DNA of 64,000 bases from Polynucleobacter sp. 31A-FELB (lineage in GTDB: Bacteria; Pseudomonadota; Gammaproteobacteria; Burkholderiales; Burkholderiaceae). The stretch lies in NCBI RefSeq assembly GCF_018882405.1, contig NZ_JACVOO010000011.1, positions 1 through 64,000 of the forward strand. Reading direction: 5' to 3'. Below are positions 29,209 through 43,201 of this stretch, in pieces. Within the stretch, counting starts at the first letter, position 1. The number at the start of each line of letters is the position of its first letter. The notes under the pieces were generated by a model, which made no database searches, had not been told where the DNA came from, and was given only the letters and a program-made list of their open reading frames with translations. The translations under genes and the position numbers were made by a program.

Positions 29209-29808
29209 TCAAGAGTCATTTTTTGAGTAGCCCAGCTCTTTGAGCTTCTTCGAGAAGGCAGCTCTACCTTCTGCCTCTGAAACAATCTTTCCATTGACAG
29301 ACCAAATGCCACGTCTCAAATCAGCGGCGGCAATTTCGGGGGCATCATCAGGATCAATGCATGGTTCTGCATTGAATATCGATCTGTATAGATAAGAACA
29401 CTCCATCAATAGCGCCATGGCTTGCTTAATCGCCTCGCTCAACATAGTATCGCTGACGATATCCCCCGAATAATCAATCACGTTCCGGTGTTTGCGCAAC
29501 TGATCCAATGTAATCAAGGTAGATGAATCAATCCCTATGGTGTGCACCAAACTTTGAATAATGGTTTGATGGTGCCCTGGCTTACTGGTAAGTACTCTGT
29601 AGCCGTGCGCTTGCATTGCTGCACTTGAGGACTGAGTGATGGATTTGTATGCCAGATCAAAGCGCCCTTCATTGCTGAGCTCCATGACTTGTGCATCCTT
29701 CAAGCTAGCTTGAGAAGCCTCTAATAAACGTTGAATGCTAAGTTTGTCACGCTCAATTGTGTCAAGCGTTACCCCGATGAGATTTTTTAACAAGTTGTGT
29801 GTCTCCAT
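29209..29808 (-). CDS. HEPN-like partner of the nucleotidyltransferase module
   Basis: This about 199-aa protein is mostly helical and has LDQLRKHRNVIDYSG near its middle, resembling the R-N/H-containing motif of HEPN proteins, many of which are RNases in toxin-antitoxin pairs. The strict RX4-6H signature is not clearly present, so activity is uncertain. I start at the Met of ETHNLLKNLIG (29808), which overlaps the end of the nucleotidyltransferase gene by 47 bases; earlier starts up to 29835 are open. The two genes form one unit. Confidence 0.65.
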   Translation of the reverse strand: METHNLLKNLIGVTLDTIERDKLSIQRLLEASQASLKDAQVMELSNEGRFDLAYKSITQSSSAAMQAHGYRVLTSKPGHHQTIIQSLVHTIGIDSSTLITLDQLRKHRNVIDYSGDIVSDTMLSEAIKQAMALLMECSYLYRSIFNAEPCIDPDDAPEIAAADLRRGIWSVNGKIVSEAEGRAAFSKKLKELGYSKNDS

Positions 29809-30391
29809 TGATGAGCAGATCATGCTCATTGCCAATGATGTATAGCTTTGGTTTGCTTAATACATCACGGATGAAGGCTCCATTATCTTGTATGAGCTTT
29901 ATCCAATCCTTACCAGTAAAGAGCTTGGGGTTAATTTCTCTTCCGAGCGTTTCCTGATATGGGTGGAGGGTTGCAACGACATCAGCAAACTCAAGGTCAC
30001 CAATAATCATGATGTCGACATCACTACCTATAGTGGATTTACCCCCTGCAGTAGATCCAAATACAAATGCACATTGAATCTGCTTCTCAAGAGGTAACAG
30101 TCCCTGTAGAAGAACATCTACTAGGCCGCTGGTTTTTCTCAGAATGCTCGCCAACTCTTCGAAGATAGGGCATGAGCGATTCGCTTGGTAATGGGTTTGG
30201 TTGCCGATCTTTTTTACCGTCACTAGCCCTGCTTTTTCCAGCTTAATCATTTCGCGTTGCAAAGTTCCTGGCGTGGTTCCGGTTAGGCCTGCGATCTGAC
30301 GCAAGTAATAAGCCTGCTCTGGATGCAATAGAAGTAGGCTCAATACGCGACTGCGGTATTGACCAAAGAGGATGGATGTAAGCGTAGTCAT
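29762..30391 (-). CDS. Nucleotidyltransferase with N-terminal winged helix (MNT partner)
   Basis: The 209-aa protein joins a winged-helix DNA-binding domain (residues about 10-70, YLRQIAGLTGTTPGTLQREM) to a minimal nucleotidyltransferase domain with FGSTAGGKSTIGSDVDIMI (Gly112-Ser113 and Asp124/Asp126). In HEPN/MNT modules the transferase acts as antitoxin, in known cases by adenylylating the HEPN toxin. Here the winged helix could also repress the operon from the inverted repeat upstream. Confidence 0.85.
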   Translation of the reverse strand: MTTLTSILFGQYRSRVLSLLLLHPEQAYYLRQIAGLTGTTPGTLQREMIKLEKAGLVTVKKIGNQTHYQANRSCPIFEELASILRKTSGLVDVLLQGLLPLEKQIQCAFVFGSTAGGKSTIGSDVDIMIIGDLEFADVVATLHPYQETLGREINPKLFTGKDWIKLIQDNGAFIRDVLSKPKLYIIGNEHDLLINGDTQLVKKSHRGNA

Positions 30392-30732: not shown

Positions 30733-30788
30733 TATTCAAAATTGCGTACTTTCCTACAATCTTTTCAGTAAAGGATGATGTAATATAT

Positions 30789-30804
30789 GTACCATAATTG
30801 GTAC
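30789..30804 (+). promoter_or_regulatory. Operator-like palindrome before the second RelE-like pair
   Basis: GTACCA-TAAT-TGGTAC has perfect 6-bp half-sites and lies just downstream of a TAATAT -10-like box (30781-30786). It ends 9 bases before the ATG at 30814, as expected for self-repression by the HTH antitoxin. Confidence 0.55.
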
Positions 30805-30813
30805 GCTACTTGG

Positions 30814-31161
30814 ATGAGACATCCCATCCTAGAAGTTAACTTTTATGGAACCGAACATGGAAATGAGCCAGTTAGAGAATGGCTTCAGTCATTAAGAGGC
30901 ATTGATAAAAAACGTATTGGGGAAGATATCAAGACTGTTCAGTTTGGATGGCCATTAGGAATGCCCTTGGTAAAACATCTTAATGGGGATATTTGGGAGG
31001 TTCGAATCAATCTCAGCAAGAGCATCGCCAGAGTGATGTTTGTATTAGATGCAAGTTCAATGGTGCTGATTCATGGATTTATTAAAAAGCAGCAAAAGAC
31101 TTTAAAGTCCGATTTAGGTCTGGCTAAAGATAGGGCAAAGAAATTAAGGGGGCACTCATGA
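30814..31161 (+). CDS. RelE/HigB-type toxin (phage Gp49-like), second copy
   Basis: This about 115-aa protein has the Gp49-like layout: EVNFYGTEHGNEPVREWLQSL, MPLVKHLNGDIWEVRINLSKSIARVMFV, then LIHGFIKKQQKTLKSDLGLAK. It probably cleaves mRNA on the ribosome. I start at the ATG at 30814 because the open frame before it contains the palindrome; an ATG at 30787 is the alternative. It overlaps the antitoxin by 4 bases (ATGA). Confidence 0.82.
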   Translation: MRHPILEVNFYGTEHGNEPVREWLQSLRGIDKKRIGEDIKTVQFGWPLGMPLVKHLNGDIWEVRINLSKSIARVMFVLDASSMVLIHGFIKKQQKTLKSDLGLAKDRAKKLRGHS

Positions 31162-33079: not shown

Positions 33080-34072
33080 TTAGGCGAATCTGAGCTCTAT
33101 TTCCACGCCAAGGTCTTTAACTAGTTCCTCGTAGTAATCGCTCCACTGAGCCCAAAGGACTTCCCATTCAGATTGGGTAATTTGAATGTAAATTAGAACC
33201 TTTTTGGTGCTGCGGCATTTATCCCGCACATGAGATAAAGCCGTTCCCAAAATATCACCAACAGACCAGGTGCCCACTTGTTTCACCACAACGAGCAAGT
33301 TTGATTTGCAAACGTTATATGCATCAGAAGGGATGACATTCCAATCCCCCTGGAGATTCGGCAAATCGCCCGTAATCATAATCTTAGCAAGAGTTTGTGC
33401 AATATTTCCCGGCAATTGAATGTTTACAGGATCGCGTCCTGAACCAGCAGTATTCATTTTCTTAATTCCTCTGGCTGAGGCATTCAAACCCTTATCTAAT
33501 TCACCTAAAACGGTTTCCTCAACCTTGGCCGGGGACCAAGAATCATGACCTTGGTGCGCGATCGCGATATAGACATCCTCCAACAAGTCTTGTTGGAATT
33601 GCTCATCATTGAATCGCAAGTTATATGCAGAAATATTATTGTCGTAACGTTCGATAGCGTGGCCAAGCCAACCCCCGGTATGACTAGTACTACTCTCGCG
33701 TATTGCCAACATTTTGCGCGCATGGTGAATGAGGCGACCCTTATCAAAAATTCCATTGCGCAGCCCGCCTTCGGTGATTCCAACATATAGGATTGGATAC
33801 CGCGTACTGATAACCGCATAAATTAAGTGATTGAGATTGGCCATGGAAACAAAATCTGCCATGGCTTCGGGGGAGCCCGCAACATCAATGCCCGGCTTTA
33901 GTTTTAGCGGGCCGATTTTCAATCCAGAACCCACGCCATCAGGCTTAGTAGAGGCGCTCGATCCCGATGAAATAGATACATAGGCTTTACTCCAAGCAGA
34001 ATCAAATGAGCCTGAGACTTTAACATCGCAAATACTGTCTAATTTATAAAAATCGCTAAATTGAAGCGTCAT
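33080..34072 (-). CDS. GIY-YIG-like protein of unknown function
   Basis: I recognise no full-length family for this 330-aa protein. Residues 84-118 resemble a GIY-YIG nuclease core: LIYAVIS, then LYVGIT at 95-100, then RLIHHARKM with Arg113 and His117 at about the usual spacing. The first Gly of GIY is absent, so the match is degenerate. The remaining 200 residues are mixed alpha/beta, without membrane segments or signal peptide. It is the last gene on this strand of the island, 48 bases after the FlgT-like gene. Confidence 0.55.
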   Translation of the reverse strand: MTLQFSDFYKLDSICDVKVSGSFDSAWSKAYVSISSGSSASTKPDGVGSGLKIGPLKLKPGIDVAGSPEAMADFVSMANLNHLIYAVISTRYPILYVGITEGGLRNGIFDKGRLIHHARKMLAIRESSTSHTGGWLGHAIERYDNNISAYNLRFNDEQFQQDLLEDVYIAIAHQGHDSWSPAKVEETVLGELDKGLNASARGIKKMNTAGSGRDPVNIQLPGNIAQTLAKIMITGDLPNLQGDWNVIPSDAYNVCKSNLLVVVKQVGTWSVGDILGTALSHVRDKCRSTKKVLIYIQITQSEWEVLWAQWSDYYEELVKDLGVEIELRFA

Positions 34073-36032: not shown

Positions 36033-36527
36033 TTATGCGGCCAATAACAATATGGGGTGCACTTGATCGGGCAGGCCTCCAAGCTTGGCCAACTTCATTT
36101 TTGCTAAGGCGGCCACCTTCTCTGAAAAGAGCTCCGGGAAATCCAGCACAATTGCTTCAGCTGATAGATGAAGGTGGCGCGAGTTAGCAAGAATCTCTAG
36201 ATTTTTACTGGGCTTAGCATCTGATGTGATGCGATGAATGGTTTCAATCACCCCATGACGCTTTAGCATTTGCTTAGTGCGAGTTAGCGGAATACGCTGC
36301 ACATTGAGATAGCTAATACCCTGAGCAACTCGCTCCAATACTTCTGCTGGCGCATGGTCTGGGGCAATATCAGCTGGTTGGTATACGTACAACTGAAACT
36401 GCTCTGCAATCGAGCTAAAACCAAAGTCCTGCGCTGCTTTGATAATCTTTTTTAAATCCTTCTTATCAATCTCACCACGCTGAGCCTGAGTCAATAAGTT
36501 TCCAAAATTGTATTTACGAGCTTTCAT
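36033..36527 (-). CDS. 164-aa protein of unknown family in the WYL island
   Basis: No family is recognised. The protein is mostly helical and basic at its start (MKARKYNFGNLLTQAQRGEIDKK in part), with no signal peptide; it ends in a hydrophobic GLPDQVHPILLLAA. The start has GGAG upstream. It is preceded by the island's 15-bp palindrome (51 bases before the ATG) and a 25-bp AT-rich palindrome, so it probably has its own promoter, controlled together with the other island units. Confidence 0.7.
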   Translation of the reverse strand: MKARKYNFGNLLTQAQRGEIDKKDLKKIIKAAQDFGFSSIAEQFQLYVYQPADIAPDHAPAEVLERVAQGISYLNVQRIPLTRTKQMLKRHGVIETIHRITSDAKPSKNLEILANSRHLHLSAEAIVLDFPELFSEKVAALAKMKLAKLGGLPDQVHPILLLAA

Positions 36528-36577: not shown

Positions 36578-36592
36578 TGACAATATTTGTCA
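36578..36592 (-). promoter_or_regulatory. Island operator site 1, TGACAA-TAT-TTGTCA
   Basis: A perfect 6-bp inverted repeat with a 3-base centre lies 51 bases upstream of the 164-aa gene. The surrounding 21 bases differ at only one position from site 2 at 39171-39185. WYL proteins commonly bind such palindromes, and a WYL gene lies 3 kb away. Confidence 0.75.
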
Positions 36593-36645: not shown

Positions 36646-38886
36646 CTAAGCAGCAGCTAGAAAACCAATCTGACGCGAGTGGGAGGATTTTTTAACTCCG
36701 ACTGCTTTAACCAACACTTGAAGCGCGTCATTAGCAGACTGGAGTTTAAGAAAACGATTTTGGCGACCTAATTGCTCGAAATCTCCCGGAGTTAAGTTAC
36801 GTAATTCCTGAAAAGGAAGCTTCACACCCTCGGGGTCTGGGAGCTGCAATTTTTCGCAAGTTGCCATAAACATTTTCCAGGCTTGCTCTTGCTTCATGAA
36901 GTCAAACTTGAGGCTAATGTCAAAACGACGTAAGGCAGCCTCATCAAGGTTATCGAATAAATTTGTAGAGGCAATAAAAATACCTTTGAAGCTTTCCATT
37001 TGAGTCAGCATTTCATTCACCATGCTGATTTCCCAGCTTTGCTTCGCCTGAGTGCGTGCAATTAGGAAGGTATCAACCTCATCAAACTGCAGTAGTGCTT
37101 TTTGACGTTTAGCCATAGCAAATGCCCCTGCAATTTTTTGCTCGGTTTCGCCAACATGCGAGCCCAATAGATCTGAAGCCTTCAAAACAATATGGGTAAT
37201 TCCCAGTTGGTCAGCCATCCACTTACCAAATGCAGTCTTACCCGTACCGGGAGGACCCCACGCACAAATACGAGCCTCACGAGTTTGTGCCACCCCATCT
37301 AATAGATTCTGAATATCTACTGTAGAGTTCACCATATCCGGCTTAAAGCCTAGTCCAAGCGATCCAGTATCAAAAGTTTGGACCTGAGACGCACCCTGGG
37401 CCTGTAGTTTGTCGTTAACCAGCATCAGCGCCAATTCGTTGCGCTCAATTGCTGTTTTATTTTCAGCCAGAGCCTTGACTACCTGAGCCGTCTTTGCGAC
37501 CAGCGCAGGTGAAGTATTCTTATTTTTAGCGATATCCCCAATAATTTCTTTACCCAGCACTTCACCGCACATCTGAGTGAGCATATTGCGACGTTGTGCC
37601 TCATCTGGAATGGGCATCTCAAAACAAATATCAAAACGACGAATATAGGCCTGATCAAATGAACGTATTGAATTTGCCACCCAGATTGCCGGCAAAGAAT
37701 TATTTTCTAGAGTCAGGTTAATCCAGGATTTTTGAGCCATGGTGGCCTCATCATCTGCTAACGGACGAGAGCGACCAGTCAAGACCTCTTCACACTCATC
37801 AAATAAAACGATCGTGCGACCCTGCTGAAACAGGGATTGCGCTGCACGATAGCTGCGCAAACGACGGATTGGGGTAACTGGATTTCCCGCTAAATTGGTA
37901 GCAGCCACCTCCATTAACTCACAACCAAGCTCTTTGCTAAGCAACTTAGAGAACTCGGTCTTACCAGTTCCTGGACGCCCATAAATGAGCACATTGACAC
38001 CCGTTTTACCCTTGGAAATTGCATCCTCTAAATAGGTCTTGAGAGCTGATGCGCGCTCTGCAATATGGTCAAAGTCACCCATCTGCAATGAGCCGTCATC
38101 CACTGGGCGGACATAGGTTTTAATCAATTCACGCACATTACGCTGGTGCATTACTGCGCGCTTCGCAAACGTCCATGTTATTAAGTCTACGCGTGAGCGA
38201 ACGCTCCCCTCCCCACGATGATCCAATGAAATGAGCCCAGTACGAATGAGGTTGGATTGTTCATCCAAAACTGTCTCTAATTCAGTACTTTTAATTCCAA
38301 GCATGGGCGCATAAATTTTCGGAATCGAAAATGCAGATACAGATTCCCCAATCAGATCGGTACACTCTTGCAAAATGACTTCACTATGAATCAAGATAGT
38401 CAGACCCAAAACCTGCTTATCTAGCTCGCTTAAATTCGCCATCTCCGCCAAAGCATTTAGGTTGCGTGCAAGATGCTTTGGCAAGGAGTAGGCCGCCCCC
38501 AGCTCTCCCTCCCAGACCGAAAGGATTGTCAGTAAATTAGCACGCAGCTCAGCTAAATCACGTTTTTTGGAATAATCCTCGAAGTTTTTGAAACCCAAAA
38601 AACTGTACAACTTCGTGCTGCAGAATGTATAGGATGACTTCAGATTATTTAAGGCGCTGGTATTAAGCAAGGTGCGCAATAGGACGACGCGTAACCATTG
38701 CGCATACTGGATATCCCCATCGATCAAATCCTCTATTTGTTCCTGCGCCATCTCATCAATGGATAGATATTTCTCTTTTTTTGCTTTTAGCAGGCGCTCT
38801 TGACGCAATGCAAGGTGCTCCGCAGCACTTGGCTTTTCATCCTCAAGCTCAGGCGAATTGGCATTCATCAGTTGATCAAAATCCAT
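36646..38886 (-). CDS. Large AAA+ ATPase with two ATPase domains
   Basis: The 746-aa protein has two AAA+ domains. Domain 1 has Walker A GRPGTGKTE at 303-311, Walker B IVLFDECEEVL near 359-369 and an arginine region YIRRFD. Domain 2 has Walker A GPPGTGKTA at 544-552, Walker B LLQFDEVDTFL near 598-608 and ALRRFD. The first 250 residues are a helical N-terminal region of no recognised family. Tandem AAA+ domains of the CDC48/ClpA type act as unfoldases or remodelers, so this is likely the motor of the island's system; no protease domain is fused. It is probably cotranscribed with the 50-aa gene upstream. Confidence 0.9.
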   Translation of the reverse strand: MDFDQLMNANSPELEDEKPSAAEHLALRQERLLKAKKEKYLSIDEMAQEQIEDLIDGDIQYAQWLRVVLLRTLLNTSALNNLKSSYTFCSTKLYSFLGFKNFEDYSKKRDLAELRANLLTILSVWEGELGAAYSLPKHLARNLNALAEMANLSELDKQVLGLTILIHSEVILQECTDLIGESVSAFSIPKIYAPMLGIKSTELETVLDEQSNLIRTGLISLDHRGEGSVRSRVDLITWTFAKRAVMHQRNVRELIKTYVRPVDDGSLQMGDFDHIAERASALKTYLEDAISKGKTGVNVLIYGRPGTGKTEFSKLLSKELGCELMEVAATNLAGNPVTPIRRLRSYRAAQSLFQQGRTIVLFDECEEVLTGRSRPLADDEATMAQKSWINLTLENNSLPAIWVANSIRSFDQAYIRRFDICFEMPIPDEAQRRNMLTQMCGEVLGKEIIGDIAKNKNTSPALVAKTAQVVKALAENKTAIERNELALMLVNDKLQAQGASQVQTFDTGSLGLGFKPDMVNSTVDIQNLLDGVAQTREARICAWGPPGTGKTAFGKWMADQLGITHIVLKASDLLGSHVGETEQKIAGAFAMAKRQKALLQFDEVDTFLIARTQAKQSWEISMVNEMLTQMESFKGIFIASTNLFDNLDEAALRRFDISLKFDFMKQEQAWKMFMATCEKLQLPDPEGVKLPFQELRNLTPGDFEQLGRQNRFLKLQSANDALQVLVKAVGVKKSSHSRQIGFLAAA

Positions 38887-38966: not shown

Positions 38967-39119
38967 TCACCTAATTTCTTTGGGGAAATACACAACGTTC
39001 CCGTCTCCAAACTCCATCTCTAGATTATTTTTGGCTTCAATGGCAGTAGTTGCCATGACTTCGATTTTTTCCAGATGGCATCCACCACCACGACGCACAG
39101 TTGCTTGAAACATTTTCAT
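38967..39119 (-). CDS. 50-aa protein of unknown function before the AAA+ ATPase
   Basis: I start at the ATG at 39119, preceded by GGAAAGG 7 bases upstream; a longer frame from 39176 would run into the operator palindrome. The 50-aa protein is small and basic at first (MKMFQATVRRGGGCHLEKIE), then has EAKNNLEMEFGDGNVVYFP. The form recalls short DNA-element proteins with one alpha/beta unit, but I cannot assign a family. It lies 80 bases before the AAA+ gene. Confidence 0.65.
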   Translation of the reverse strand: MKMFQATVRRGGGCHLEKIEVMATTAIEAKNNLEMEFGDGNVVYFPKEIR

Positions 39120-39170
39120 TTGAAAACCTTTCCAATTGATTGGGATAAATTGAATACTGCCATATATAAA

Positions 39171-39185
39171 TGACATTATTTGTCA
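39171..39185 (-). promoter_or_regulatory. Island operator site 2, TGACA-TTATT-TGTCA
   Basis: A palindrome with 5-bp half-sites lies 52 bases before the 50-aa gene ATG, almost the same distance as site 1 from its gene. With flanks, AAATGACAWTATTTGTCACT is shared with site 1. Confidence 0.75.
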
Positions 39186-39363: not shown

Positions 39364-40569
39364 TTAAGAGTAGTTAGCTAATGCTCTTTTTAGATCGTAC
39401 TCAATCCGATCGCGAATGAGTTGAGGCTCTATTACCTTAACAAATGGGCCTAGACTGCGTAACCACCATACAAGCTCCTCTTGAAGCAACAGAGTGACAG
39501 TCACAAGCGACCAATTCTCTTTGGATTCATCCTCCAAAGGAGATTCGCCTTTTATTTTTTCCCATCGATCAATAATTGCGTAGCCTGCTGGGGAAATTAC
39601 CTGGTCATGACCAATCGGGGTTTCATTTAATATCCCCGCCGTTCCAGAATCGACTAACAATTTCAGCCTAATTGGCTGACCATAGATGATTGGCTTTCCT
39701 TGCTTATCGTGCGATGCGTATTTAGGCTGTGCAATCCCGCGATCCAACTGTGCTTTAATTTCTGCACGTGAAGCTGGCTGAAATCGCTCTGGGGATATTC
39801 TTGCTGAATCAACTCTATTTAATAAATAAGATCGTAAATTAGGTTGCGTAGGTGATGTAATAAGCAAGTAGGTTCTAGCCCCCTTCTGTACTAGGGCTTG
39901 AGGGAATACTACCCCCCTCAGCTTACCGCTATAAACAATTTCTAGACTCTGCTCCTGTAGCAATGCCTCATGAATGACTTTTTCAACATCCTTGCGAATA
40001 GCTCTCTTTTTGAATGAAATCCAATCAGGGAGGCGCTCTATCTTATCCAGCCATTTCTTTGCCTTAAGTTCTGCCTGCCTGGGAGTTGCTGATGTTTTCT
40101 CAATTACTCTTTGTTTTGCCTCATCCATTGCTAAAGAAAAATAAGGATTCAATGTCTCACTGACGGTTGACGGCATCCAAGAGGTACCTAGCTTTTGCAG
40201 CATACCGAACGCAATCATCTCATTTTCCGAGAGACCCGCAAGCTTAAATGGCGCACCAGACTCGTCCCAAGAAACGCCCTTTCTAGTGGAAATAATTTTT
40301 TCTCTCTTCAGCGTATTAATTGCCCTACTTAAAATCTCAAGATCTCGTTGGACATAGCGCAAAAAAGAGGTTGGCGAGACTTGAATATCATGCCCAAGGC
40401 TATGGCGTTTATACAAACGCTCTGCTATCTCCTTCTTGCTAATGGAGCGACCTGCTGTTGGAATTGCTCTTAAAACATCCCAGCGTCGCTGAAGGACGCG
40501 AAGTGCCTCTTTCTCCTCCGGAACCTCTTGGGTGGGATCGAAATCCTCGGCTATCTTTTTCTTTGCCAT
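39364..40569 (-). CDS. WYL-domain transcriptional regulator
   Basis: The 401-aa protein has an N-terminal winged-helix region (about residues 25-95, RRWDVLRAIPTAGRSISKKEIAE, VQRDLEIL), a middle helical part, and a WYL domain near 205-265 (SLEIVYSGKLRGVVFPQALVQKGARTYLL in part; SYLLNRVDSARISPERF). WYL regulators sense ligands, often nucleic-acid fragments or nucleotides, and frequently control defence genes. It is the third gene of a run with spacings of 5 and 11 bases, and is the best candidate to bind the three palindromes. Confidence 0.88.
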   Translation of the reverse strand: MAKKKIAEDFDPTQEVPEEKEALRVLQRRWDVLRAIPTAGRSISKKEIAERLYKRHSLGHDIQVSPTSFLRYVQRDLEILSRAINTLKREKIISTRKGVSWDESGAPFKLAGLSENEMIAFGMLQKLGTSWMPSTVSETLNPYFSLAMDEAKQRVIEKTSATPRQAELKAKKWLDKIERLPDWISFKKRAIRKDVEKVIHEALLQEQSLEIVYSGKLRGVVFPQALVQKGARTYLLITSPTQPNLRSYLLNRVDSARISPERFQPASRAEIKAQLDRGIAQPKYASHDKQGKPIIYGQPIRLKLLVDSGTAGILNETPIGHDQVISPAGYAIIDRWEKIKGESPLEDESKENWSLVTVTLLLQEELVWWLRSLGPFVKVIEPQLIRDRIEYDLKRALANYS

Positions 40570-40574
40570 ATGCG

Positions 40575-41315
40575 CTACTCCGCTCTTCTATTTAATCTTG
40601 CAACTACCGATTTACCTGCAGCTAGATAACGCTCATATCGGTGCTCCTGGCCCTCATCGCAATACCCATCAGTTACCCGCTCATACCCAGGCCATGACTC
40701 ACCCTCTGTTGCTAGATACAAATATCGTGGCAATTTCTTAGCCGCTTTATAGAGAAGGCAGTCACCATAAAAAGTTGCGAACTGAAACCCCCAAGGTCCA
40801 TGATCTTGCAACACTACGATATTCGGATATACCTTTGCTTTTTGTAGGGCTCGATAAGCCTGAATACCTTCGGCCCTAAGGTAAATCAGGTGAAACTGGA
40901 TCTCTGGAAAAAACGCGCGCAATCCAAAAAAGTTTTGATTCTCAAGCGCATATTCCTGCGCGTAATCAGGCGTAGATGCATAAAAGCTGTCATTTGGATT
41001 GGGGAAGAAATCTGAATACTGAAATGCGCCAAAATCTGCCGGTAATAGATCATTAACTAGCACTACATTAGTTGAATACAGACGCTTGACTCGATCAATA
41101 AGTTGCTCGATGACATCAGGTGTAATGTTGATGTCGACATAGATTGCAGTTGCGAGTGAATCAAAAGGGGCTTGTCCAGTAGCAGATCGACTTCTCAAGA
41201 TCAAATCCAAGGGTCCCGTATCCGTATATGCGCCAGGATAATAAAGGCATGCTGATTCCACAGGATTACCCCAGCGATTACCGCCGGCTTCATGCAAATA
41301 TTTGATAGGCAACAT
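40575..41315 (-). CDS. 246-aa protein of unknown family, cotranscribed with the WYL regulator
   Basis: I do not recognise this protein. It is soluble-looking, rich in aromatic residues (SACLYYPGAYTDTGPLDLILRS; FQYSDFFPNPNDSFYAS; QDHGPWGFQFATFYGDCLLY), with an alternating alpha/beta pattern and no signal peptide. The middle (TAIYVDINITPDVIEQLIDRVKRLYSTNVVLVND) could be a Rossmann-like unit, but no motif confirms it. It sits 5 bases before the WYL gene and 11 after the small gene, so all three are one operon. Confidence 0.7.
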   Translation of the reverse strand: MLPIKYLHEAGGNRWGNPVESACLYYPGAYTDTGPLDLILRSRSATGQAPFDSLATAIYVDINITPDVIEQLIDRVKRLYSTNVVLVNDLLPADFGAFQYSDFFPNPNDSFYASTPDYAQEYALENQNFFGLRAFFPEIQFHLIYLRAEGIQAYRALQKAKVYPNIVVLQDHGPWGFQFATFYGDCLLYKAAKKLPRYLYLATEGESWPGYERVTDGYCDEGQEHRYERYLAAGKSVVARLNRRAE

Positions 41316-41326
41316 TTAATAGACTC

Positions 41327-41587
41327 TCATTTGCCATAGAAGGAGGTAATGTCAAATGCGATATCCTTCACCTCCCCTGATGGTAGTTTGATTGTGAGGA
41401 TGTCGATCTCCACCGGATCGCCTCCTTTATTGGGGTTTCGGGTCGTTACTCTTTGGCGCAACAATTCCCACCCCACTCCAAATTCGCCATAAATTTGATC
41501 AATGTATTCATATTCAGCGCAAATTCCGGACTCGGTATCTAGCGCCTCAATCACAATCAATTCACAATTATTTACATTCAAAGGCAT
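41327..41587 (-). CDS. 86-aa protein of unknown family, first gene of the WYL operon
   Basis: Unknown family. The protein is acidic and likely beta-rich (NNCELIVIEALDTESGICAEYEYIDQ; EIDILTIKLPSGEVKDIAFDITSFYGK). I start at the ATG at 41587 with GAGAG about 6 bases upstream; a GTG two codons earlier is possible. It is followed by the 246-aa and WYL genes and faces the DUF2779 gene across a 114-base divergent region holding operator site 3. Confidence 0.65.
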   Translation of the reverse strand: MPLNVNNCELIVIEALDTESGICAEYEYIDQIYGEFGVGWELLRQRVTTRNPNKGGDPVEIDILTIKLPSGEVKDIAFDITSFYGK

Positions 41588-41637
41588 GAGCACTCTCTTG
41601 TCGGATACACATAAATATAGAGTCTAATCTGAATTAA

Positions 41638-41652
41638 TGACAAAAAGTATCA
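41638..41652. promoter_or_regulatory. Island operator site 3, degenerate TGACA-AAAAG-TATCA
   Basis: It has the same 15-bp spacing as sites 1 and 2, with one mismatch in the second half-site (TATCA for TGTCA) and similar AA..TT flanks. It lies in the shared promoter region of the 86-aa operon (minus) and the DUF2779 gene (plus), where it could control both. Confidence 0.5.
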
Positions 41653-41701: not shown

Positions 41702-43201
41702 ATGAAATCAAATATCGGGACAAAGCCCTATACCCTGACCAAGTCCAAGGTAATTTCAGGGCTTCAATGCCATAAAAAGCTCTGGCTTGATACGAATAAT
41801 CCGATTAAGCAAGAATTACATATTTTCTATATCGGGAATCGCTTTGGAGAATTTGCGCGCACCCATTACGGCACTGGAGTCGACTTAACAGGCAATCTGG
41901 ATGCAACATCTGCCGCAGCAGAAACACAGGTCGCAATCAATAACCCCTTGATATCGATCATCTATGAGGCAGCCTTTTTGTATAACGACACTCTAGTGCG
42001 TGCCGATGTTCTGCGCCGAAACCCCGAGGGGTGGGAAATGATTGAGGTGAAGTCTTCCACAAGCCTAAAGGAGGAGCATATAAAGGATGCCTCCGTACAA
42101 GCCTATGTTGCAAAAGGCTCCGGCCTTAAGTTAAATAAAATTCAGATAGCTCATATCAACAATACCTTTGTATATCAAGGCAAAGGTGACTATGCAAAGC
42201 TGATTACCGAAGTTGATATTACTAGTGAGGTAACAAAGAAGATTGATTCAGTATCTCAATGGATTTCTGAGCTAAAGCCTTTCGCAACATTTGGTGCTGA
42301 CATACCCGAAGTGGCCATGGGACCTCAATGCACTGAACCGTACAATTGCCCACACCAAAATCACTGTAGCGCCCCCCTTCCAAAATTAGCTGAAGTACCC
42401 ATTTCCATTCTTCCCAACTCTGGCGCAGCTCTTGCAAAGAGTTGGGCGACTAAAAAAATATACGATCTTAGAGATCTTCCAGAAAGCGCACTTCCTAACC
42501 CTAAACATAAGATTATTCAACTGGCACATAAGTCTGGATCGACGTGGATCTCCCCCGAGATCAAATCTCAGGTAAATAATTTTGAGTGGCCCCGCTATTT
42601 CATGGATTTTGAAACTGCACAGCAAGGCGTTCCACTGCTGGCTGGCACCAAAGCCTATGACGCGCTTCCTTTTCAGTGGTCAATTCATCGCTGGGATAAT
42701 TCCGATCAAATCCTCAATGTTGATGATGGCCTTGGCTATCTCAAGTTTTATGACCCCAATATGGATCGCGAGTTTCTTGAAACCCTCCTGAGTGCAGTTG
42801 GGACAAAGGGGCCCATCTTCGTTCATAACGCTTCATTTGAGCGCTCTAAACTTCGTGCCTTAGTAAAGCGCCCTACTTGTACGGATCTTCATGTCCCGGT
42901 TGAAGCGTTGATCGCTCGCATTATTGACACTCTAGATATTGCACGTGATGGCTTTTACTCACCAGTCATGATGGGGTCCTATTCCCTAAAGGACATCGTA
43001 AAGGCGATTCCTACGACAGTCGACTATTCGAGCTCAAACGGTTTAAGCGGCGGTGGTGATGCACAAATTGCCTGGTTTAAATGCACCGATCCGAGCATTT
43101 CTTCATCCGAGAAATTGGATTGGGAGAACAAGTTGAAACACTATTGCGCACAAGACACTTTAGCGATGTACGACTTTATTAAATATATTGCCGAAAGTTA
43201 A
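41702..43201 (+). CDS. DUF2779 protein: Cas4-like nuclease fused to DEDD exonuclease
   Basis: The 499-aa protein has two nuclease-like halves. The first is PD-(D/E)XK, Cas4/AddB-like: Cys23, RADVL (Asp102), EMIEVKSS (Glu115, Lys117), and a closing trio Cys210/Cys216/Cys222 (TEPYNCPHQNHC), which with Cys23 would hold an iron-sulfur cluster. The second is DnaQ-like: YFMDFETA (Asp302, Glu304), VHNASFE (Asn376), DTLDIA (Asp409) and HYCAQDTLAMYDF (His480, Asp485). DUF2779 has no firmly known role. It is transcribed away from the WYL operon across operator site 3. Confidence 0.85.
   Translation: MKSNIGTKPYTLTKSKVISGLQCHKKLWLDTNNPIKQELHIFYIGNRFGEFARTHYGTGVDLTGNLDATSAAAETQVAINNPLISIIYEAAFLYNDTLVRADVLRRNPEGWEMIEVKSSTSLKEEHIKDASVQAYVAKGSGLKLNKIQIAHINNTFVYQGKGDYAKLITEVDITSEVTKKIDSVSQWISELKPFATFGADIPEVAMGPQCTEPYNCPHQNHCSAPLPKLAEVPISILPNSGAALAKSWATKKIYDLRDLPESALPNPKHKIIQLAHKSGSTWISPEIKSQVNNFEWPRYFMDFETAQQGVPLLAGTKAYDALPFQWSIHRWDNSDQILNVDDGLGYLKFYDPNMDREFLETLLSAVGTKGPIFVHNASFERSKLRALVKRPTCTDLHVPVEALIARIIDTLDIARDGFYSPVMMGSYSLKDIVKAIPTTVDYSSSNGLSGGGDAQIAWFKCTDPSISSSEKLDWENKLKHYCAQDTLAMYDFIKYIAES

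Follow-up and report, generated by a model that had tools for sequence, protein, structure and literature searches.

Two unrecognised genes in a predicted WYL-controlled nuclease cassette of Polynucleobacter sp. 31A-FELB

The stretch of DNA analysed here, referred to as the window, comprises 64,000 nucleotides of Polynucleobacter sp. 31A-FELB (contig NZ_JACVOO010000011.1, positions 1 to 64,000). It contained a block of seven genes centered on p86 (41327..41587, 86 aa), p246 (40575..41315, 246 aa), and a 401-aa WYL-WCX regulator (39364..40569), which follow one another in this order on the minus strand. The Pfam matches of the regulator, to the WYL domain with E 2.2e-5 and to the WCX domain with E 7.3e-9, were above the curated cut-offs. 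The genes are separated by 11 bases (41316-41326) and then by 5 bases (40570-40574), confirming the tight spacing ahead of the regulator that the first-pass annotation had described, and the p246-WYL gap is also 5 bases in the corresponding locus (L001) of a Burkholderiaceae MAG. This spacing and a common upstream region suggest that p86, p246, and the regulator gene are cotranscribed. Downstream of the regulator and on the same strand are p69 (38967..39176), a small protein of no family; a double AAA+ ATPase of 746 aa (36646..38886; Pfam AAA, E 1.5e-40; PHROG 10401 ATPase, E 8.7e-111); and p164 (36033..36527, 164 aa), a protein of no credible family that has a 49% identical relative adjoining AAA and WYL genes in a related locus (L043). 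Upstream of p86 and divergent from it lies a gene on the plus strand (41702..43201) for a 499-aa predicted DUF2779 nuclease with Cas4-like PD-(D/E)xK and DEDD-type domains (Pfam DUF2779, E 5.3e-26, 91.8 bits against a cut-off of 23.3). p86 was taken from an ATG, at which the protein alignment with its L001 counterpart begins; the open reading frame list starts it at a GTG further upstream, which makes 88 aa.

GC content was 0.41-0.47 within the block and 0.42-0.49 around it, so the block is not marked by composition. A umuDC-like pair, named by eye, adjoins it. Elsewhere in the window, a 330-aa protein (33080-34072, minus strand) has a GIY-YIG-looking stretch by eye and gave no match in Pfam or PADLOC. 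A RelE/HigB-like protein (30787-31161, plus strand) and an HTH-nucleotidyltransferase-like gene with a HEPN-like gene after it (29209-30391, minus strand), all named by eye, are possible toxin-antitoxin genes.

The description of p86 and p246 as unrecognised proteins held up, and no clear match to a housekeeping family appeared for either. Both gave no match at E<=1 in Pfam, NCBIfam, and PHROGs; p86 had none in PADLOC or among PDB sequences, and the best values for p246 were E 1.3 among PDB sequences and E 1.2, to a lectin, in a profile search of PDB sequences. The single PADLOC match of p246, to Cas5d (E 0.016), was taken as chance. A profile match of p86 to the solved structure of Alr1010, a CcbP-like calcium-binding protein, had E values of 0.85 and 1.1, ranked below unrelated matches, and was probably chance as well. 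The highest 19-residue Kyte-Doolittle means were 0.71 for p86 and 0.92 for p246; no membrane span is predicted, which supports the earlier view that both are soluble at the level of prediction. The predicted structure of p86, a small and acidic protein with a net charge of -8, had a mean pLDDT of 75.8, was matched by no entry of PDB or BFVD in Foldseek at E<=0.001, and matched no known fold by VIA-align (best Z 3.9, with unrelated folds tied). The model of p246, built from a two-row alignment, reached a mean pLDDT of 33.2. As a lead, the alternating strands and helices seen by eye in p246 would suit a Rossmann-like fold, and an alignment of its relatives showed, also by eye, a common motif YYPGA.TD..P followed by a YVD strand.

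L001 was the only p246 locus in the scan of genome contigs, and it carried the block in the same order. The amino-acid identity to L001 was 63% for p86, 72% for p246, 73% for the WYL regulator, 81% for p69, 84% for the AAA+ ATPase, 78% for p164, and 79% for DUF2779. With dN/dS values of about 0.13 (p86) and 0.10 (p246), which are rough because dS is near saturation, the two genes are, as judged by their sequences, real and conserved under purifying selection. The umuC-like neighbour was 97% identical to its L001 counterpart, compared with 63-84% for the block. DNA identity to L001 fell at about 42,650, within the DUF2779 gene, and was mostly 0.5-0.9 from there on to about 36,040, whereas on the other side of 42,650 it was about 0.85-1.0 over most of the flank. 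Because identity is low inside and high in the flank, the block resembles a cassette that has been exchanged or is diverging fast. The sharp drop itself (42550-42740) looks like a recombination boundary. Among the gaps, that between DUF2779 and p86 was 83% identical to L001, and the other three were 43, 74, and 67% identical; in the same comparison, p86, p246, and the WYL gene reached 66-72%, lower than the DUF2779-p86 gap.

The gaps of the block contained the three best copies of the palindrome TGACAAnnnTTGTCA in the 64-kb window (at least 10 of 12 positions), and copies of this quality were found in these gaps only. The first predicted WYL operator (41638..41652, 10/12) lies between DUF2779 and p86, at 49 and 50 bases from their respective starts; the second (39171..39185, 11/12) lies 51 bases before residue 20 of p69; and the third (36578..36592, 12/12) lies 50 bases before p164. 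The corresponding distances in L001 were 50 (DUF2779), 51 (p86), 51 (p69), and 49 (p164), with sites of 10, 11, and 11 of 12 in the same three gaps, and a fourth L001 site (10/12) was located inside another gene. When the four gaps were subjected to 2,000 mononucleotide shuffles, sites appeared in three gaps in none, in two gaps in one, and in at least one gap in 73. The pattern was derived from the first and third window sites; therefore, independent support comes from the second site and from the L001 copies. Matches with up to three mismatches were not enriched in the window (25 found vs. 35.4 expected), so that only the three best sites, together with where they lie and how they are spaced, carry weight. 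The start of p69 was placed here at residue 20 (39119) because the listed start (39176) falls within the palindrome and because the first 19 residues agree less well with L001 (12/19 identical) than residues 20-69 do (44/50). The inverted repeat of the p86-DUF2779 gap, taken by itself with an arm of 7, was equalled or beaten in 216 of 300 shuffles. Promoter-like hexamers before p86 (TTGTCA-18-TATATT, 41614..41643, minus strand) have a -35 element that overlaps operator 1; one such pair was found against 2.1 expected in shuffles, which is weak by itself. In a scan of 16 other loci, L001 included, none of the DUF2779 or WYL relatives, L043 among them, had the palindrome in the corresponding gaps; in L044, a site of 10/12 lies 0.4 kb ahead of the AAA gene.

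These results suggest a single predicted WYL regulon of four transcription units, namely the DUF2779 nuclease, p86-p246-WYL, p69-AAA+ ATPase, and p164. Control of all four by the WYL protein is inferred from the common palindromes at a fixed spacing and from the precedent of BrxR and CapW. Acinetobacter BrxR is reported to bind a pseudo-palindrome that overlaps the -35 element; palindromes of 19-24 bp are the reported binding sites of CapW, which represses in both directions (PMC9122589, PMC9122588). The window regulator has WYL and WCX domains, as do BrxR (BREX) and CapW (CBASS); its predicted palindromic site overlaps a predicted -35 element, as reported for Acinetobacter BrxR, and is situated between divergent genes, as reported for CapW. 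On the other hand, no genes of BREX or CBASS were matched among the seven window proteins tested, and the window differs from both systems in having three predicted operators for four units and a regulator that is third in its own unit.

Within the predicted regulon, DUF2779 is the likely effector because its Cas4-like and DEDD active-site residues are intact. The residues C23, D102, E115, K117, Q133, C210, C216, D302, E304, D409, and D485 were invariant in nine of nine aligned DUF2779 proteins, and C222 was kept in eight of the nine. We take D102, E115, K117, and Q133 to be of the PD-(D/E)xK type and D302, E304, D409, and D485 to be of the DEDD type. The window protein thus has both the domain pair and the intact residues of Cas4-like (DUF83) plus DEDD exonuclease proteins. 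DUF2779 has been placed among presumed 3'-5' exonucleases, and its combination with DUF83 has been reported (PMC3985635). The first-pass annotation had proposed that p86 and p246 could be the effector or sensor of the system. This proposal gained partial support. Both genes lie within the predicted regulon, yet the natural effector candidate is DUF2779, which is outside the coordinates of that annotation, rather than p86 or p246, and the WYL protein is itself a likely sensor. The DUF2779 gene closest to that of the window among the fetched relatives (L087 6513-8017, genome G064; 57-63% identical) is split into two open reading frames, and is either a decayed copy or an assembly error.

DUF2779 was present in 15 of 150 related genomes. 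A WYL gene occurred in the fetched stretch at nine of the 15, a raw count favored by a WYL model that was partly built from these loci, and it was the next gene to DUF2779 in four (G024, G044, G126, and G127). The stretches without a WYL gene were those of G053 (partial match, internal stop), G059, G064, G092, G140 (3.3-kb contig), and G147. Strong relatives of the AAA+ ATPase (E below 1e-60) were found at seven places in six genomes, with a WYL gene in the stretch at four of the seven and none at the other three. A WYL gene also directly follows the AAA gene of MT835507, a record labelled "phage" that is unverified and may come from a bacterium.

A PADLOC scan of 20 chosen neighbouring proteins found matches to PD-T4-3 beside the DUF2779-WYL pairs of G024 (E 1.6e-19) and G127 (E 9.5e-24), to PDC-S26 beside that of G044 (E 1.2e-53), and to PDC-M27A/B/C beside the AAA-WYL pair of MT835507. 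A defence role is favored because PADLOC families adjoin related DUF2779-WYL and AAA-WYL pairs; the seven proteins of the window block, searched against PADLOC, matched no established defence system. In MT835507 (L094, 1-10009), the PDC-M27A/B/C-like genes are divergent from the AAA-WYL pair, and this stretch is probably a bacterial defence island. GIY-YIG genes beside DUF2779 and/or WYL matched PD-T4-3 and Pfam LEM-3_GIY-YIG at two loci (L046 8216-8986 and L049 8172-9029), and GIY-YIG-like genes in the same setting matched no family at two others (L062 10558-11859 and L087 5635-6504). Experiments on PD-T4-3, a restriction enzyme, have been published (PMC12923530). This PD-T4-3/CMoRE GIY-YIG enzyme adjoins the WYL gene of the pairs in G024 and G127, and in G024 it is directly upstream of WYL, which is the place of p246 in the window; however, it was not found in the window block, and p246 was not recognised as a GIY-YIG protein. 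A further comparison is with IetAS (AAA ATPase plus protease), in which the IetA models matched the window ATPase over its second AAA domain, but with a score of 104.5 bits against a curated cut-off of 510, and no protease match was obtained among the neighbours tested.

The cassette might instead serve repair or stress, with a PafBC-like WYL protein switched by DNA damage, a nuclease and an AAA+ ATPase processing damaged DNA, and p86 and p246 as repair accessories. Single-stranded DNA is reported to activate the WYL factor PafBC (PMC11804915), the umuDC-like pair adjoins the window block, and a DNA-polymerase-IV-like gene, named by eye, adjoins the AAA gene in L046. This reading is nevertheless unlikely given the patchy occurrence of the cassette, its divergence relative to the flank, and its defence-family neighbours. 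Furthermore, BrxR and CapW have comparable palindromic sites (PMC9122589, PMC9122588), and PafBC alone was reported not to bind promoter DNA (PMC11804915).

Convincing p246 genes are scarce. The window's own was the only one in the 150 related genomes (G000-G090 being same-genus genomes, n=91), two other matches, in G036 (E 5.7e-4, internal stop) and G088 (E 9.2e-4), being judged chance hits to a periplasmic-binding-protein-like gene, named by eye. Wider searches yielded 2/300 (its own and G158), 3/229 (its own, G574, and a match in G551, E 0.002, that was inside a recG-looking gene and was judged chance), and 1/229 (its own), and further sets of 71 and 56 genomes yielded the centre genome only. 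G158 encodes a 421-aa protein with an N-terminal part related to p246 (BLASTP E 1e-11). The single DUF2779 gene of this genome lies 146 bp away from it and a WYL gene 2,341 bp away, and a GIY-YIG-looking gene intervenes. The G574 relative (265 aa; E 2e-20 to the G158 protein) is on a 3.8-kb contig from which the partners are absent, and its link to p246 runs through G158 since the direct profile comparison was weak (E 0.014, probability 3%).

For p86, a relative on a Salinibacter plasmid (34% identity, profile E 4.7e-11) is encoded three genes after a WYL gene. The p86 searches gave 2/300 and 4/185, the latter including two matches with internal stops (G540 and G551; E 0.006 and 0.0085) that were judged chance, as were two further plasmid records at E 0.1 and 0.7. 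Lipoprotein-like relatives were found in G290 and G454. p86-like domains with lipoprotein-like N-termini occur at L054 1474-1851 and L064 8053-8433, so that this family may extend further, with some of its members exported. Viral contigs yielded no relative of p246, p86, the AAA+ ATPase, or DUF2779; plasmids yielded none of p246 or of the G158 and G574 proteins; and phage records yielded none of the latter two. One phage record matching p246 at E 0.8 was judged chance.

p86 and p246 co-occurred in the window and L001 only when 24 sequences were rescanned with both profiles, and an obligate pair is therefore disfavored. This bears on the possibility that the two form a toxin-antitoxin-like or toxin-inhibitor pair, in which p246 would act on the cell, p86 would inhibit it, and the WYL repressor would control both. 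The position of a small acidic protein directly upstream of a larger one under apparently tight control would be in keeping with such a pair. However, the p246 relatives of G158 and G574 are without a p86 relative in the fetched stretch, the Salinibacter p86 relative is without a p246 relative in its own, and neither protein matched a toxin family; this reading is very unlikely.

Another reading holds that the two genes merely travel with the operon, as passengers or as a captured pair of other origin, and take no part in the activity of the cassette. Both are absent from the related WYL-AAA-p164-DUF2779 locus L043, p246 occurs in few of the genomes searched, and relatives of p86 are found elsewhere as lipoprotein-like genes. 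This explanation is unlikely, as both genes are under purifying selection and the p246-DUF2779-WYL and p86-WYL neighbourhoods recur in distant organisms. The optional presence of the two genes (both absent from L043, and no p86 relative in the G158 stretch) is more in keeping with accessory parts than with a core effector.

The best explanation, with a probability of about 0.5, is that p86 and p246 serve as accessories, regulated together with the other genes, in a compact nuclease cassette under WYL control, and that this cassette most likely acts against phages or other foreign DNA. It draws, at the level of sequence, on gene order, conservation, common palindromes at fixed spacing, intact nuclease residues, and recurrent linkage. 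In the resting cell, a WYL dimer bound to the three palindromic operators would hold down DUF2779, p86-p246-WYL, p69-AAA+ ATPase, and p164. Upon infection or DNA damage, a nucleic-acid-like ligand would bind the WYL domain and free the promoters. Next, the target would be remodelled by the AAA+ ATPase with its two domains, for which p164, p69, p86, and p246 would be putative adaptors or recognition parts, and the DUF2779 enzyme would degrade the DNA of the target. A very unlikely variant is that p246 is the founding member of a so far unrecognised family of alpha/beta enzymes and that it synthesizes, alters, or degrades the WYL ligand, so that p86-p246-WYL would be a self-contained infection sensor unlocking the DUF2779/AAA nuclease machine.

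The nearest published observation found was that of WYL genes near UvrD-Cas4 fusions (PMC5704561). No paper tying the DUF2779 family to WYL regulation was found, and no recognisable description of this cassette was found in titles and abstracts; two further reports were also drawn on (PMC9122601, PMC4012209).

WYL regulators are known to guard defence operons, and the locus is relevant to their ligands and to the full gene sets that they control. It offers an exact prediction, of one palindrome, one spacing, four transcription units, and seven genes, of which four (p86, p246, p69, and p164) match no family. Membership of the two orphan families in the cassette thereby becomes testable, and the DUF2779 enzyme is placed in a probable defence setting. 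This small cassette is also suited to asking what the WYL domain senses, and if p246 did act on the WYL ligand, the locus would represent an undescribed kind of WYL-wired defence system. Both p86 and p246 probably belong, as components not recognised before, to a rare system that defends against phages or other DNA entering the cell.
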